64,000 bases of DNA from Actinomycetota bacterium (lineage in GTDB: Bacteria > Actinomycetota > Acidimicrobiia > Acidimicrobiales > JAJPHE01): contig JAJPHE010000129.1 in the NCBI GenBank assembly GCA_021325435.1, positions 1 through 64,000 on the forward strand. The letters run 5' to 3'. The translations under genes and the position numbers were made by a program. A model generated the notes under the pieces. That model searched no databases and was not told the origin of the DNA. It was given only the letters and a program-made list of their open reading frames with translations. Positions 18,854 to 22,386 of this stretch are shown one piece after another; the stretch's first letter is position 1; every line of letters starts with the position of its first letter.

Positions 18854-19969
18854 GTGAACTTCGCCTTCAGTGAGGAGCAGGAAGAGCTCCGCCGCTCCGT
18901 TCGCCGGTTCCTGGATGACAAGTCTCCGATCACCGAGGTCCGCCGCCTGATGGAGACGACCGAGGGCTACGACCCCGCCGTCTGGTCCCAGATGGCCAAC
19001 CAGCTCGGGCTGCAGGGCCTCACCATCCCGGAGGAGTACGGAGGGTCGGGCTTCAGCTACGTCGAGCTCATCGTGGTGCTGGAGGAGATGGGCCGGTCGC
19101 TGCTGTGCGCCCCCTACTTCTCGACGGTGGCTCTGGCGGCCAACGCCATCCTCGCCTCGGGCGACGACGCCGCCAAGAAGGAGCTGCTCCCGGGCATCGC
19201 CAGCGGTGAGACCATCGCCACCCTGGCCCTCACCGAGGACAACGGGCGCTGGGACCTCGAGGGCATCCAGCTGCAGGCCAAGAAGTCGGGCGACGGCTAC
19301 ACCCTCGACGGCCACAAGATGTTCGTCATCGACGGGCACACCGCCAACCTGATCGTGGTGGTCGCCCGCACCAGCGCCGGCATCAGCTTCTTCGCCGTGG
19401 ACGGCGACGCCCAGGGCCTGACCCGCACGGCCCTGTCCACCATGGACATGACCCGCAAGCAGGCCCGCCTCGAGTTCTCCGGCACCCCGGCCCGCCTGAT
19501 CGGGGCCGACGGCGGCGCCGAGGCCGCCCTGTCCAAGACGCTCGACCTGGCCGCGGTGGCCCTGGCCGCCGAGCAGGTCGGCGGTGCCCAGCGCTGCCTG
19601 GACATGAGCGTGGAGTACGCCAAGGTCCGGATTCAGTTCGGCCGGCCCATCGGCTCCTTCCAGGCCATCAAGCACAAGTGCGCCGACATGCTCCTCGAGG
19701 TGGAGTCGGCCAAGTCGGCCGCCTACTACGCCGGCTGGGCCGCGGCCGAGGACTCCGACGAGCTGCCGGTGGTGGCCAGCCTGGCCAAGGCCTACTGCTC
19801 CGAGGCCTACTTCCACGCCGCGGCCGAGAACATCCAGATCCACGGCGGGATCGGGTTCACCTGGGAGCACGACGCCCACCTCTACTTCAAGCGGGCCAAG
19901 TCCTCCGAGCTGCTCCTCGGGGACCCGACCTACCACCGCGAGCTGCTCGCCCAGCGCATCGGCATCTAG
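18854..19969 (+). CDS. Acyl-CoA dehydrogenase family protein
   Basis: A 371-residue FAD-dependent acyl-CoA dehydrogenase. It has the N-terminal helical domain (MNFAFSEEQEELRRSVRRFL), the middle strand domain with TLALTEDNGRWD, and the C-terminal helical domain with RIQFGRPIGSFQAIKH and IQIHGGIGFTWEHDAHLYFKR. The last motif is typical of the group. It oxidises an acyl-CoA or a steroid-side-chain thioester; chain specificity is not evident. It starts at GTG 18854 after a GAGGGGG Shine-Dalgarno sequence. Confidence 0.88.
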   Translation: MNFAFSEEQEELRRSVRRFLDDKSPITEVRRLMETTEGYDPAVWSQMANQLGLQGLTIPEEYGGSGFSYVELIVVLEEMGRSLLCAPYFSTVALAANAILASGDDAAKKELLPGIASGETIATLALTEDNGRWDLEGIQLQAKKSGDGYTLDGHKMFVIDGHTANLIVVVARTSAGISFFAVDGDAQGLTRTALSTMDMTRKQARLEFSGTPARLIGADGGAEAALSKTLDLAAVALAAEQVGGAQRCLDMSVEYAKVRIQFGRPIGSFQAIKHKCADMLLEVESAKSAAYYAGWAAAEDSDELPVVASLAKAYCSEAYFHAAAENIQIHGGIGFTWEHDAHLYFKRAKSSELLLGDPTYHRELLAQRIGI

Positions 19970-20054
19970 GTCCGGACCGGCGCCGGTCGACCCCCGCGGC
20001 GGCCGGAAACATGCACCGGCCACCTCCCCTCGTCGGGTAGCCTGACGGCACCAG

Positions 20055-20135
20055 AGAAAGGAGGTGGTCCAACTGAGTCATCAACGTCTTGGGACCCTGG
20101 AGGTGGCTGGCCGCTAGGCGGCCGCTGGACCACCT
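20055..20135 (+). ncRNA. Candidate cis-acting RNA: extended SD with alternative stems
   Basis: AGAAAGGAGGTGGTCC (20055-20070) is complementary to the conserved 3' end of bacterial 16S rRNA (GGATCACCTCCTTTCT) at all positions, counting one G-U pair. AGGTGGTCCA (20062-20071) is the exact reverse complement of TGGACCACCT (20126-20135), a 10-base-pair stem that would hide it. A second AGGTGG at 20101-20106 can pair with the same CCACCT, and GGCCGC/GCGGCC (20109-20114, 20118-20123) forms a hairpin between. Competing pairings around a short ORF are typical of translation-sensing leaders. Function is inferred. Confidence 0.5.
20073..20117 (+). CDS. Possible 14-residue leader peptide
   Basis: CTG at 20073 lies eight bases after AGGAGG and opens 14 codons ending in TAG, encoding L/M-SHQRLGTLEVAGR. 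An in-frame GTG at 20064 is too close to the Shine-Dalgarno sequence. The peptide is too short for homology judgement. The ORF lies between the two strands of the 10-base-pair stem, so ribosomes on it would change which stem forms. It has no run of a single amino acid that would mark an amino-acid attenuator. Confidence 0.35.
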   Translation: MSHQRLGTLEVAGR

Positions 20136-20232
20136 GGTGAATCCCAGCCAGACACCGCCCGCCTGATCCGGTCGGGGGCTGGTCCCACCCGAAGCGGTAC
20201 GGACTGCGGGTCCTTTCCGGCAGTTTCTCAGA

Positions 20233-20261
20233 GCGAGGGGGCGCCATCGGCGCCCCCTCGC
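20233..20261 (+). terminator. Strong 13-bp hairpin without U-tract
   Basis: GCGAGGGGGCGCC, the loop ATC, then its exact complement GGCGCCCCCTCGC. No T-run follows, as is common for terminators of high-GC actinobacteria. It would end transcripts coming from the acyl-CoA dehydrogenase or from the structured element before the next gene. Confidence 0.6.
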
Positions 20262-20300
20262 CGCGTCTCGCCGCTGCCGCGGCCCATTAGGTTCGGCTCG

Positions 20301-21056
20301 ATGATGGACGAGGTCCTCGAGAGTGCGGGCCTGAAGCTCGGCGCCCACCTCGCCCGGCCCAAGACCCGTGGCGCCGGCCGCCGCCCCGGCCTGGTCCTCG
20401 CCCACGGTTTCCCCGCCGCCCCGGCCGGCGCCGGCCAGGCGGGTTCCACCTATCCCGAGCTCGCCGACTGGTTGGCCGCCGAGGCCGGCTGGGTCGTCCT
20501 GGCCTTCAACTTCCGGGGGGCGGGCACCTCCGAGGGGGACTTCTCGCTGGGCGGCTGGCTGGCCGACCTACGGTCAGCCGTCGACCACCTCTCGTCCCAA
20601 CCCGATGTGTCGGGCGTCTGGCTGGCCGGATTCCGCGACGGGGGCTCCCTGGCGTTGTGCGTGGCGGGCGAGGACCCCCGGGTCCGTGGTGTCGCCGCCC
20701 TGGCCGCCCCCGTCGACTTCGACCGCTGGGCCTCGGAGCCCCGCCGCTTCCTCGAGGAGGCCCGCCGGGCCGGGGTGATCCGCCGGCGGGAGTTCCCACC
20801 CGACTTCGACGCCTGGGCCCGCGAGCTGCGCGAGATCAAGCCCCTCACCGGGGCCGCCGGCGTTCCCCCCCGTCCACTCCTCGTGGTGCACGGGACCGAC
20901 GACGTCACCGTGCCGCTGATGGACGCCAGGGCGTTGGCCGACGCCGTGTCCAACAAGGTCGAGTTCCGGGTCCTGAACGGCGCCGGCCACCACCTGCGCC
21001 ACGATCCGCGGGCGGTCGCCATCCTCCTCGGGTGGCTGGAGCGTCAGGAGGTCTAA
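20301..21056 (+). CDS. Alpha/beta hydrolase-fold protein lacking the usual nucleophile
   Basis: A 251-residue alpha/beta hydrolase-like protein. It has LVLAHGFPAA (oxyanion region), FNFRGAGTSEG, and a C-terminal LLVVHGTDDVTVP followed by GAGHHLRHDP, giving the Asp and His of a triad. The nucleophile elbow, normally G-x-S-x-G, reads GFRDGG, with Arg112 where Ser would be. The protein may be non-hydrolytic or use another residue. TAGGTT seven bases before the ATG suggests a leaderless message. Its TAA overlaps the thiE stop on the other strand. Confidence 0.78.
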   Translation: MMDEVLESAGLKLGAHLARPKTRGAGRRPGLVLAHGFPAAPAGAGQAGSTYPELADWLAAEAGWVVLAFNFRGAGTSEGDFSLGGWLADLRSAVDHLSSQPDVSGVWLAGFRDGGSLALCVAGEDPRVRGVAALAAPVDFDRWASEPRRFLEEARRAGVIRRREFPPDFDAWARELREIKPLTGAAGVPPRPLLVVHGTDDVTVPLMDARALADAVSNKVEFRVLNGAGHHLRHDPRAVAILLGWLERQEV

Positions 21057-21691
21057 ACGCTGGTGGCCACGGCCCGGTCGATCGCCGAGGCCAGCTGGCG
21101 GGCGGCCTCCTCGGGGTCGGCCGCCTCGGTGAACCACCGGACGGCCACGAACCTGGTGGCCCCGGCTGCCACCATCGGCCCAACGGTGTCGGGGGTGACG
21201 CTGCCGGTGACGTAGAACGGGAGCCTGCTCCGGTCGGCCGCGTAACGCAGGTAGGCGAGGCCGGTCGGCGGTCGATCCGGATGGGTGGCGGTCGGAGCCA
21301 CCGGGCCGGTCGAGATGTAGTCGACGGGCTCCCCCTGGGCGGCGTCGAGCTCGGGCGGTCCGTGGGTGGAAAATCCGATCACCGCCTCGTCGCCGAGGAT
21401 GCGGCGGGCCACGGCGGGAGGGCAGTCGTCCTGTCCCACGTGCACCCCGTCAGCTCCGGCGGCCAGGGCGAGGTCGGGCCGGTCGTTGAGGATGAACGGG
21501 ACGCCGCCGGCCCGGCAGGCGGATCCCACCAGCTCAGCCCGGCGGAGAAGGCTCCGGTCGTCCAGGAGCTTCTCCCGCAGCTGGACCACATCGACGCCTC
21601 CACGGATGCAGGCGGCCACGAAATCGGCGAGATCGGGCCGGTCGGGCGTGCAGAGGTAGAGGCGGCGCCCGTCGAGCTTGTCGGGGATCAG
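21053..21691 (-). CDS. thiE: Thiamine phosphate synthase
   Basis: A 212-residue TIM-barrel enzyme that joins the pyrimidine and thiazole phosphates in thiamine synthesis. Conserved parts are [33 protein letters not shown] and [14 protein letters not shown]. Starting at GTG 21619 would lose the first beta-strand ([11 protein letters not shown]). The only start-like codon upstream before a stop is CTG 21689-21691, with GAAGG seven bases earlier, and it overlaps the TGA of the upstream repair gene as CTGA. I take that CTG as the start. It is the only thiamine gene here. Confidence 0.85.
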
Positions 21692-22386
21692 CTCCTCGCC
21701 TTCTTAGCGGCCGTCTTCTTGGCTGTCGTCTTCTTGGCTGCCGTCTTCTTGGCTGTCGTCTTCTTGGCTGCCGTCTTCTTGGCTGTCGTCTTCTTGGCTG
21801 CCGGCTTCTTCGGTACCGCCTTCTTGGCCGCCGCCTTCATGTCCGCCTTGTACTGGCGGACTCTCGCCAGCGAATCCGGGCTCTCGATGTCGGCCACTGA
21901 ACGGAAGCTGCCCGCCTCGCCGTAATGGCCAGCGGCCTCGCGCCATCCAGAAGGGCGAACGCCGAGCTGCTTGCCCAGGAGGGCCAGGAAGATCTTCGCC
22001 TTCTGCTCGCCGAACCCGGGCAGCGCCTTCAGGCGCTTGAGTAGCTCGATGCCCGAGTCCGCCCCGTCCCACACCGCGGCGGGGTCGCCTCCGTACTCGT
22101 CGACGAGCACCCGACACAGCTCCTGCACCCGGGCGGCCATCGACCCCGGGAAGCGGTGGAGGGCGGGGGGGCCGGAGAAAGCGGCGGCCAACCGGTCGGG
22201 GTCGGCGGCCGCGATCTCGCCGGCGTCGAGTCTTCCGCCCAGGCGCTCCTGCAGGAGCAGTGGGGACTTGAAGGCCCACTCCAGCGGGATCTGCTGGTCG
22301 AGGACCATCCCTACCAACAGAGCGAGCGGACTCTCGCTGAGGAGTTGATCTGCTTCGGGGTCCTGCGCCAGGTGCAGTTCAGCCAC
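21688..22386 (-). CDS. HhH-GPD-type base-excision repair protein with lysine-rich tail
   Basis: A 232-residue DNA glycosylase-like protein. The helix-hairpin-helix is in [22 protein letters not shown]; earlier [20 protein letters not shown] resembles the family start. I see no clear catalytic aspartate, so activity is uncertain. The last 45 residues are alternating KKT/KKTA units, histone H1-like, likely to bind DNA non-specifically. Start is GTG 22386; TAACCT lies six bases upstream, suggesting a leaderless transcript. The stop overlaps the proposed CTG start of thiE. Confidence 0.78.
21707..21803 (-). repeat. 30-base tandem repeats encoding the [10 protein letters not shown] tail
   Basis: Units of about 30 bases, each made of two near-identical 15-mers (CTTCTTGGCTGTCGT and CTTCTTGGCTGCCGT on the plus strand), repeat about three times with almost no divergence. 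They encode the lysine- and alanine-rich end of the HhH protein. Such repeats can change number by slippage while keeping the frame. Confidence 0.85.

Follow-up and report, generated by a model that had tools for sequence, protein, structure and literature searches.

An acyl-CoA dehydrogenase gene (18854-19969) and an alpha/beta hydrolase gene (20301-21056; Pfam) flank a gap that appears to hold a self-contained small RNA gene, a homologue of Ms_IGR-5, whose role would be to take up a ribosome and lead it to a stop codon at a fixed place. We put at about 0.5 the probability that this RNA is a ribosome trap or sensor acting at termination or recycling and not a leader of the gene downstream. 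Comparison of related elements shows a candidate -10 box of its own, a Shine-Dalgarno (SD) sequence that matches the tail of 16S rRNA (SD1), an ORF under selection, a second SD sequence (SD2) at a kept spacing, and covarying P1, P3, P5 and pseudoknot pairings. More tentatively, we propose a wider RNA class, spread over several phyla, that would work by being translated and not through its peptide: an SD complementary to the full 16S tail would load 30S subunits and a second SD would pin the terminating ribosome, making the RNA a trap or a sensor of recycling or initiation factors.

The window, as the term is used here, is the whole 64,000-nucleotide stretch of DNA that was analysed. A sequence-only reading had described a structured, ribosome-linked element in this gap, and on rechecking its account of the gap and all of its coordinates proved correct. 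AGAAAGGAGGTGGTCC lies at 20055-20070, the two strands of an exact 10-bp complement, AGGTGGTCCA and TGGACCACCT, lie at 20062-20071 and 20126-20135, and AGGTGG, within the second SD, lies at 20101-20106. The 16-mer of SD1 occurs once in the window; with up to three mismatches allowed, 39 of 100 shuffled sequences still give at least one SD1-type match, so the motif alone is weak evidence. The 225-nt region folds better than its shuffles (z = -2.59; 3/200), and a 106-nt piece with the P2 stem does not (z = -0.82; 36/200). Conservation is the real test of such an element, and at the level of sequence it is passed strongly: conserved stems, a conserved ORF and wide homologues establish that the structured element is real.

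Homology to RF02471 and distribution

At an E-value threshold, the region matches Rfam family RF02471 (Ms_IGR-5, "Actinobacteria sRNA") on the forward strand with 42.1 bits (E = 1.9e-8 to 2.6e-8), and the alignment runs end to end, over model positions 1-184 of 184. Since the score lies under the gathering cut-off of 45 bits, the window element is a homologue of RF02471 and not a formal member. The whole window gave no match to Rfam at gathering cut-offs, and a search confined to them would have hidden the homology, because only the E-value search showed it. A tRNA/tmRNA search returned none.

Within the order, 37 of 59 genomes have an RF02471 match, the own genome among them, and 10 of these exceed the cut-off; for the phylum the count is 57 of 296, and for control genomes 0 of 14. 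A model, R1, built from an alignment of 37 sequences that includes the window copy (A1), was run on 198 genomes of the order and finds a single copy in each of 119; in the other 79, some of them single-contig, it finds no copy, which indicates that the RNA is not needed everywhere. Three single-contig genomes of the same order (G004, G034 and G052) have no match to the element models, which suggests loss or change of the RNA in some lineages.

Among the listed pattern matches are Mycobacterium, Nocardioides, Amycolatopsis, Geodermatophilus, Cellulomonas, Actinomadura and others, together with MAGs named Bryobacterales, Terriglobia, Acidobacteria, Sumerlaeota, Zixibacteria, Nitrospirae and Planctomycetaceae. 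When RF02471 was compared with five non-Actinomycetota or unlabelled elements (L107, L111, L132, L171 and L199), two matched weakly (28 and 27 bits) and three did not match. Outside Actinomycetota, the putative kinship rests on motif and architecture, and the cases are MAG contigs, for which misbinning is possible; an "Acidobacteriota" contig that carries an Acidimicrobiia-type copy (L179) is probably a misbinned MAG contig. A simple pattern matches 31 of 199 genomes in the phylum of one Bryobacterales MAG; judged by eye, about 10 of the 31 are real and the others coding chance, and the seven of these 10 or so that were fetched all carry the ORF. The same simple pattern matches 138 of 396 genomes of the window's own phylum, a count that is not a prevalence figure because the reversed control matches many of them too. 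A stop-extended pattern, covering only the commonest variant, matched none of 249 genomes in the phylum of an alphaproteobacterial MAG.

A phage, plasmid or viral origin was considered and rejected: the window copy has no phage match, and none of the viral contig matches (5 and 3) shows the ORF architecture. Searched against a plasmid collection, the copy of a relative (L049) gave one record, from Nocardia farcinica (2.66 Mb), with no listed feature at that place.

SD1, SD2 and the short ORF

The motif expression used for counting fixes most of the central part of SD1 and requires SD2; it covers 88 of 90 RF02471-derived loci, with L053 and L089 outside it. The full set of 186 elements, including 98 from the pattern scan (97 kept for having the stop, L166 kept by eye), was reduced to 165 at 85% identity and to 162 after L093, L096 and L166 were left out, these three having no stop at the standard place and an ORF in another frame. 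Because the 97 scan elements were chosen by their stop, fair counts of stop position come only from the 88 RF02471-derived elements, which were not so chosen, and from 118 unfiltered genome matches (one of the 119 listed was skipped as too near the locus end). Forty further elements were picked by eye from matched strings that end before the stop.

SD1 (20055-20070, forward strand) is complementary to the 16-nt 3' tail of 16S rRNA (duplex -29.9 kcal/mol), a tail that is single-stranded in the ribosome. Watson-Crick or G-U pairs cover all 16 positions in 145 of 162 elements, and in 75 of the 77 that derive from RF02471. Most of the central GGAGGTGG in SD1 was already set by the search expressions, which leaves mainly the outer positions as a free test. 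Positions -5 to -1 vary between A and G only, apart from two C, so pairing to the 16S tail is kept. Of 10 genomes asked, six, each from the same order, contain the tail GGATCACCTCCTTTCT, which was not found in the own draft genome; the figure of 16 pairs with one G-U thus holds for close relatives.

The mini-ORF (20073-20117, forward strand) has a CTG start and 14 codons, read as LSHQRLGTLEVAGR, and ends in TAG at 20115-20117. Every one of the 37 A1 sequences keeps the frame that ends at 20117 open, stops at the same place and has a start-type codon shortly after SD1; across the family the ORF length is 10-19 codons. Among the 162 non-redundant elements, the three frames differ in how often a stop interrupts them ahead of the conserved one: 1, 145 and 118 elements have a stop between SD1 and that point (open: 161, 17 and 44). 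Start-type codons 5-13 nt after GGAGG occur in the stop's frame in 160 elements and in the other frames in 27 and 13; for ATG alone, the corresponding counts are 40, 0 and 1. The best starts are TTG (60), ATG (42), CTG (32), GTG (16), ATC (6), ATT (4) and ATA (1), with none in L066, and the stops are TAG (122), TGA (25) and TAA (15). The 77 RF02471-derived elements behave alike, with start-type codons in 76, 9 and 7 by frame and inner stops in 1, 63 and 57; the single inner stop in the right frame, in L055, precedes its start codon.

The position of the stop relative to SD2 is similarly constrained. In 86 of the 88 RF02471-derived elements, the distance from the start of the SD2 GTG to the stop is exactly four codons, which places the stop 11 nt after GAGG. 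Of the 118 usable genome matches to the pattern that ends before the stop, 97 have a stop at that place, against an expectation of about 5.5 (3 in 64), and none of the five viral matches does; of the 21 without it, L166 has its ORF in another frame, and the remainder have the appearance of chance hits within genes. The ORF is present in all 40 further elements, which were chosen before the stop was seen (37 by tool and 3 by eye, L251, L278 and L279 being read by eye as the expression had taken another GAGGTG), and here the stop follows GAGG at 11 nt in 29, at 10 nt in 7 and at 13 nt in 4. The 10- and 13-nt variants use another frame, ending in ...GGGSS-stop or ...GGGVSR-stop where the common form ends in ...EVAGR-stop; some lineages read GGA-GGT-GGC to the stop.

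SD2 itself (GGAGGTGG, 20099-20106, forward strand; duplex -15.0 kcal/mol) lies within the ORF. Its GGAGG ends 8 nt before the last sense codon, and its GGAGGTG is invariant in A1. When the stop occupies the A site, the codon in the P site starts 8 nt past SD2 (7 or 10 in variants): 8 nt in 86 of the 88 RF02471-derived elements, and 7, 8 or 10 nt in the 40 further ones. This spacing falls within the 7-14 nt found between SD1 and the start (looked for within 4-14), and so is an initiation distance. The last sense codon is mostly NGC, giving R, S, C or G. Taken together, the comparison shows the ORF frame, the start-type codon and the stop, as read from sequence, to be under selection, and the peptide not. 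The frame and length variants at the ORF end indicate that ribosome entry and the SD2-to-stop distance are what is kept, and not a product; that fixed distance could also come from P3/P3a structure alone.

This pattern of constraint bears on the alternative that survives best, one that we regard as unlikely while giving it real weight: a base-pairing regulatory sRNA that acts on target mRNAs through its anti-SD-like or loop segments, with mini-ORF translation only protecting the RNA, clearing its structure or timing its decay. The S. avermitilis homologue appears in PMC8780764 as an sRNA transcription unit, PMC8079986 gives the S. lividans homologue as transcribed, and 14 of 35 A1 elements and 30 of 153 others contain a segment exactly complementary to the SD1 region over at least 8 nt. 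The strongest conservation, however, falls on SD1, the ORF ends and SD2 and not on a free antisense segment, and the anti-SD segment is absent from most elements outside A1.

That the RNA is instead a small mRNA whose micropeptide is the product seems improbable, even though frame, start and stop are strictly kept and EV[AT] near the ORF end is common in the large group. The residues vary where the RNA parts permit; no synonymous codon replaces the GAG and GTG of SD2 in any of the 162 elements, a constancy that the search expressions partly impose; and the ORF end varies in frame or length from lineage to lineage. It was on the frame variants that the peptide as product was rejected. As judged from codon tables and frame variants, there is no amino-acid conservation beyond that imposed by the RNA. 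A check on relatives finds the stems and the ORF frame kept and the peptide sequence not.

Covarying structure and the predicted transcription unit

In A1, a structure made of P1, P3, P3a, P5 and the pseudoknot has 90.0% of cells paired and 75 two-sided cells; shuffles give 84.0% and 29 (0/500 reach either value), and slid versions at most 47.2% and 27. By this alignment evidence, the predicted P1, P3, P5 and pseudoknot covary. P1 pairs CCAG (20051-20054) with CTGG (20097-20100), with 99.3% of cells paired and 26 two-sided cells over the 37 sequences; an extra adjacent pair (alignment columns 8/62) is paired in only 27.0%. Held to a fixed 6-pair register, P1 is paired in 405 of 462 cells among the 77 RF02471-derived elements, and 1000 shuffles reach at most 340. 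P3 pairs GGTGGCTGG (20102-20110), which covers part of SD2, with CCAGACACC (20148-20156), the covarying partner of the second AGGTGG; it is 95.9% paired in A1 with four of eight pairs two-sided, and it is fully paired with the element's own 3' region in 93 of 162 elements, against an average of 44 when the regions are swapped. P3a (20111-20121), a CCGC-TAG-GCGG hairpin with the stop codon in its loop, was modelled with three pairs, of which 89.9% of cells are paired and one is two-sided. P5 (20172-20192; 20172-20176 with 20188-20192) has all six modelled pairs two-sided and 78.4% paired, and its loop holds GTCCC (20182-20186), which pairs with GGGAC (20091-20095) to form the pseudoknot (99.5% paired, three of five pairs two-sided in A1). 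An exact 5-mer complement for the pseudoknot is found in the element's own downstream region in 99 of 162 elements; swapped regions give a mean of 56 and a maximum of 71.

Two further observations concern the 3' part. GCTGG at 20124-20128 could pair over a long range with CCGGC at 20217-20221, as judged by eye. Many close relatives share, ahead of the terminator, a CCTTTCCAGCA-like segment (here CCTTTCCGGCA, at 20212-20222) that might pair with the same GCTGG or with SD1.

P2, the stem proposed to sequester SD1, pairs 20062-20071 with the anti-SD-like TGGACCACCT at 20126-20135. The exact 10-bp match stands, and the stem persists in most of the A1 sequences, 93.2% of cells being paired across the 37, with no two-sided change; covariation would hardly be visible, because SD1, which forms the 5' strand, is itself near-invariant. 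In 35 A1 elements the mean length of the longest complement to SD1 is 7.46 nt, against 5.44 after shuffling; in 153 others it is 6.11 nt, against 5.47. By sequence, the second AGGTGG may compete for the CCACCT at 20130-20135, as had been suggested. A purely conformational ribosome sensor with P2 as its main switch, in which free 16S tails open SD1 and the P2 strand re-pairs elsewhere, is favoured by the keeping of P2 in A1 and by the minimum-energy fold of the window copy, which is the P2 form (-109.2, against -99.3 for P1 plus P3 with the pseudoknot not counted). We nevertheless give such a sensor a low probability, as P2 lacks two-sided change and an exact partner of at least 8 nt is absent from 123 of the 153 elements outside A1. 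P2 was accordingly demoted from the core of the element; it may be an optional, lineage-specific lock.

Generic sigma-70 promoter and consensus terminator scans of 19950-20400 found nothing; the -10 box and the terminal hairpin emerge from comparison only. The -10 box TAGCCT (TANNNT; 20038-20043, forward strand) lies 22 nt before GGAGG. TANNNT stands at -22 or -23 in 112 of 161 elements and within -27 to -21 in 123, against 2 in a control window of the same width. The 13-bp hairpin noted at the end of the region is present at 20233-20261 with the loop ATC, and comparison across elements makes it a probable terminator without a U-run. A perfect stem of at least 9 bp occurs downstream in 51 of 158 elements (shuffled 1/158; upstream windows 2/158), and a T-rich tail follows in 20 of these 51. 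The missing U-run, and the strict hairpin test that only those 51 pass, count against our main reading. We predict a stand-alone transcript of about 213 nt (20050-20262, forward strand), basing this on where the -10 box lies, on the conserved core and on the hairpin at the end.

The neighbouring genes point the same way as this predicted transcript, and they resemble one another only within the order. A related, hydrolase-type ORF lies downstream on the same strand, not always adjacent, at 28 of 37 A1 loci and in 30 of 88 elements overall. Outside the order the neighbours, picked by a codon-composition score of which some picks look wrong and named here where they have a Pfam match, include a FUR regulator with a THAP4-type haem-binding protein, a GNAT acetyltransferase, an Na+/H+ antiporter, ribosomal protein L31 and an M24-like peptidase (under the Pfam cut-off); at seven loci an other-strand gene downstream was read as DNA ligase, by eye and without a family search. 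No constant same-strand downstream gene was found among these loci, and because neighbours differ between lineages, many being on the other strand, we take the element to be a stand-alone gene. Thus, of the earlier alternatives of a ribosome-responsive leader or a small RNA, the ribosome-linked small RNA with conserved stems and an ORF stands; a ribosome-responsive 5' leader or attenuator of the alpha/beta hydrolase gene, favoured by the downstream ORFs of the order and by the 40 nt or so between the hairpin and the hydrolase ATG, is very unlikely and was rejected on synteny, the differing neighbours, the intervening terminator-type hairpin and the sRNA listing of the S. avermitilis homologue in PMC8780764 all speaking against it.

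Three kinds of neighbour deserve separate mention. At L111, L151, L170 and L201 an rpmE-like gene (ribosomal protein L31) follows closely downstream of the element, separated from it by a hairpin-like stretch; the call rests on Pfam for L111 and was made by eye for the others, and L111, L151 and L170 are in Bryobacterales/Terriglobia MAGs. The order's elements are often flanked by small uncharacterised ORF families, of about 150 codons upstream (27 loci; for example L031) and about 100 codons downstream (11 loci; for example L085), the loci being among L009-L045, L070 and L085. In the window, 21688-22386 on the reverse strand holds a 232-aa ORF with the look, by eye, of a DNA-repair (HhH) type and with a lysine/alanine-rich, histone-like C-terminal tail of AAKKTTAKK repeats.

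Proposed mechanism and known systems

A strong SD1, a tiny ORF and an SD2 near the stop together look made to catch and hold ribosomes. In the mechanism that we propose for the trap or sensor, SD1 would capture 30S subunits and the mostly non-ATG start codons would make entry slow. At the stop codon the 16S tail would pair with SD2, and RRF/EF-G recycling would release the RNA poorly. The parked terminating ribosome, or its 30S subunit, would keep P3 open and the pseudoknot broken. The RNA may then act in trans or on itself, as a ribosome trap or as a sensor at termination or recycling; the cell might thereby store ribosomes, sense recycling or initiation factors, or make the 3' part available to a target. 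The P2 form as the computed energy minimum and the genomes of the order without a copy count against this holding model. In the passages of PMC4974804 on Ms_IGR-5, homologues in M. abscessus and M. smegmatis carry ribosome-protected reads, and its authors caution that such reads also cover many ncRNAs.

New here is that a family filed as non-coding carries, as its sequences indicate, a conserved ORF of 10-19 codons. The passages on Ms_IGR-5 in the literature, including those of PMC4974804, make no mention of an ORF, and in the literature searched, which leaves most subscription papers outside, we did not find the ORF, the tandem SDs, the covarying P1, P3 and pseudoknot or the spread beyond Actinomycetota described. 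If our reading is true, a family listed as sRNA is translated and is kept for the positions at which ribosomes start and stop, not for a product, and there would be a reason for the extreme SD complementarity and the non-ATG starts.

The window element shares with RF02471 homology over the whole model, whose consensus contains SD1, the ORF frame, SD2 and segments able to form P1, P3 and the pseudoknot. It differs in scoring under the cut-off of a family filed as an Actinobacteria sRNA gene, whose structure line (30 positions hidden) shows neither P1 nor the pseudoknot. Attenuator leader peptides and uORFs of the tnaC and ermCL kind also place a short ORF in a structured RNA where a ribosome can alter folding. 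Unlike those leaders, the present RNA is apparently a stand-alone transcript, with no constant downstream gene, a peptide that is not conserved and a second SD near the stop. Dual-function sRNAs such as SgrS/SgrT and RNAIII likewise hold an ORF within a small RNA, and there the peptide is a product, whereas here it is not conserved. The extended SDs of S. aureus, as set out in the passages of PMC13009471 on them, share SD pairing beyond the canonical helix; two extra pairs are shown there in an mRNA complex, whereas here all 16 tail bases would pair, in an RNA without a protein gene.

A further likeness is to the recycling templates treated in PMC5443523. Its passages on them argue that RRF/EF-G do not release the mRNA when a short ORF has a strong SD near the termination site, that such SD-held complexes are split by IF1/IF3, and that E. 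coli ORFs end, with limited exceptions, without an SD-like sequence. Set beside the SD2 spacing, this argument makes the RNA look like a natural version of that trap, and if so it would offer a natural system in which to ask if ribosomes stay held after termination by an SD close to the stop codon, and if cells count or store ribosomes in this way. Both place a strong SD near a terminating ribosome, where it is expected to resist mRNA release; the templates of that work belong to the laboratory and to in vitro reactions, whereas the element described here would be a natural RNA with two SDs.
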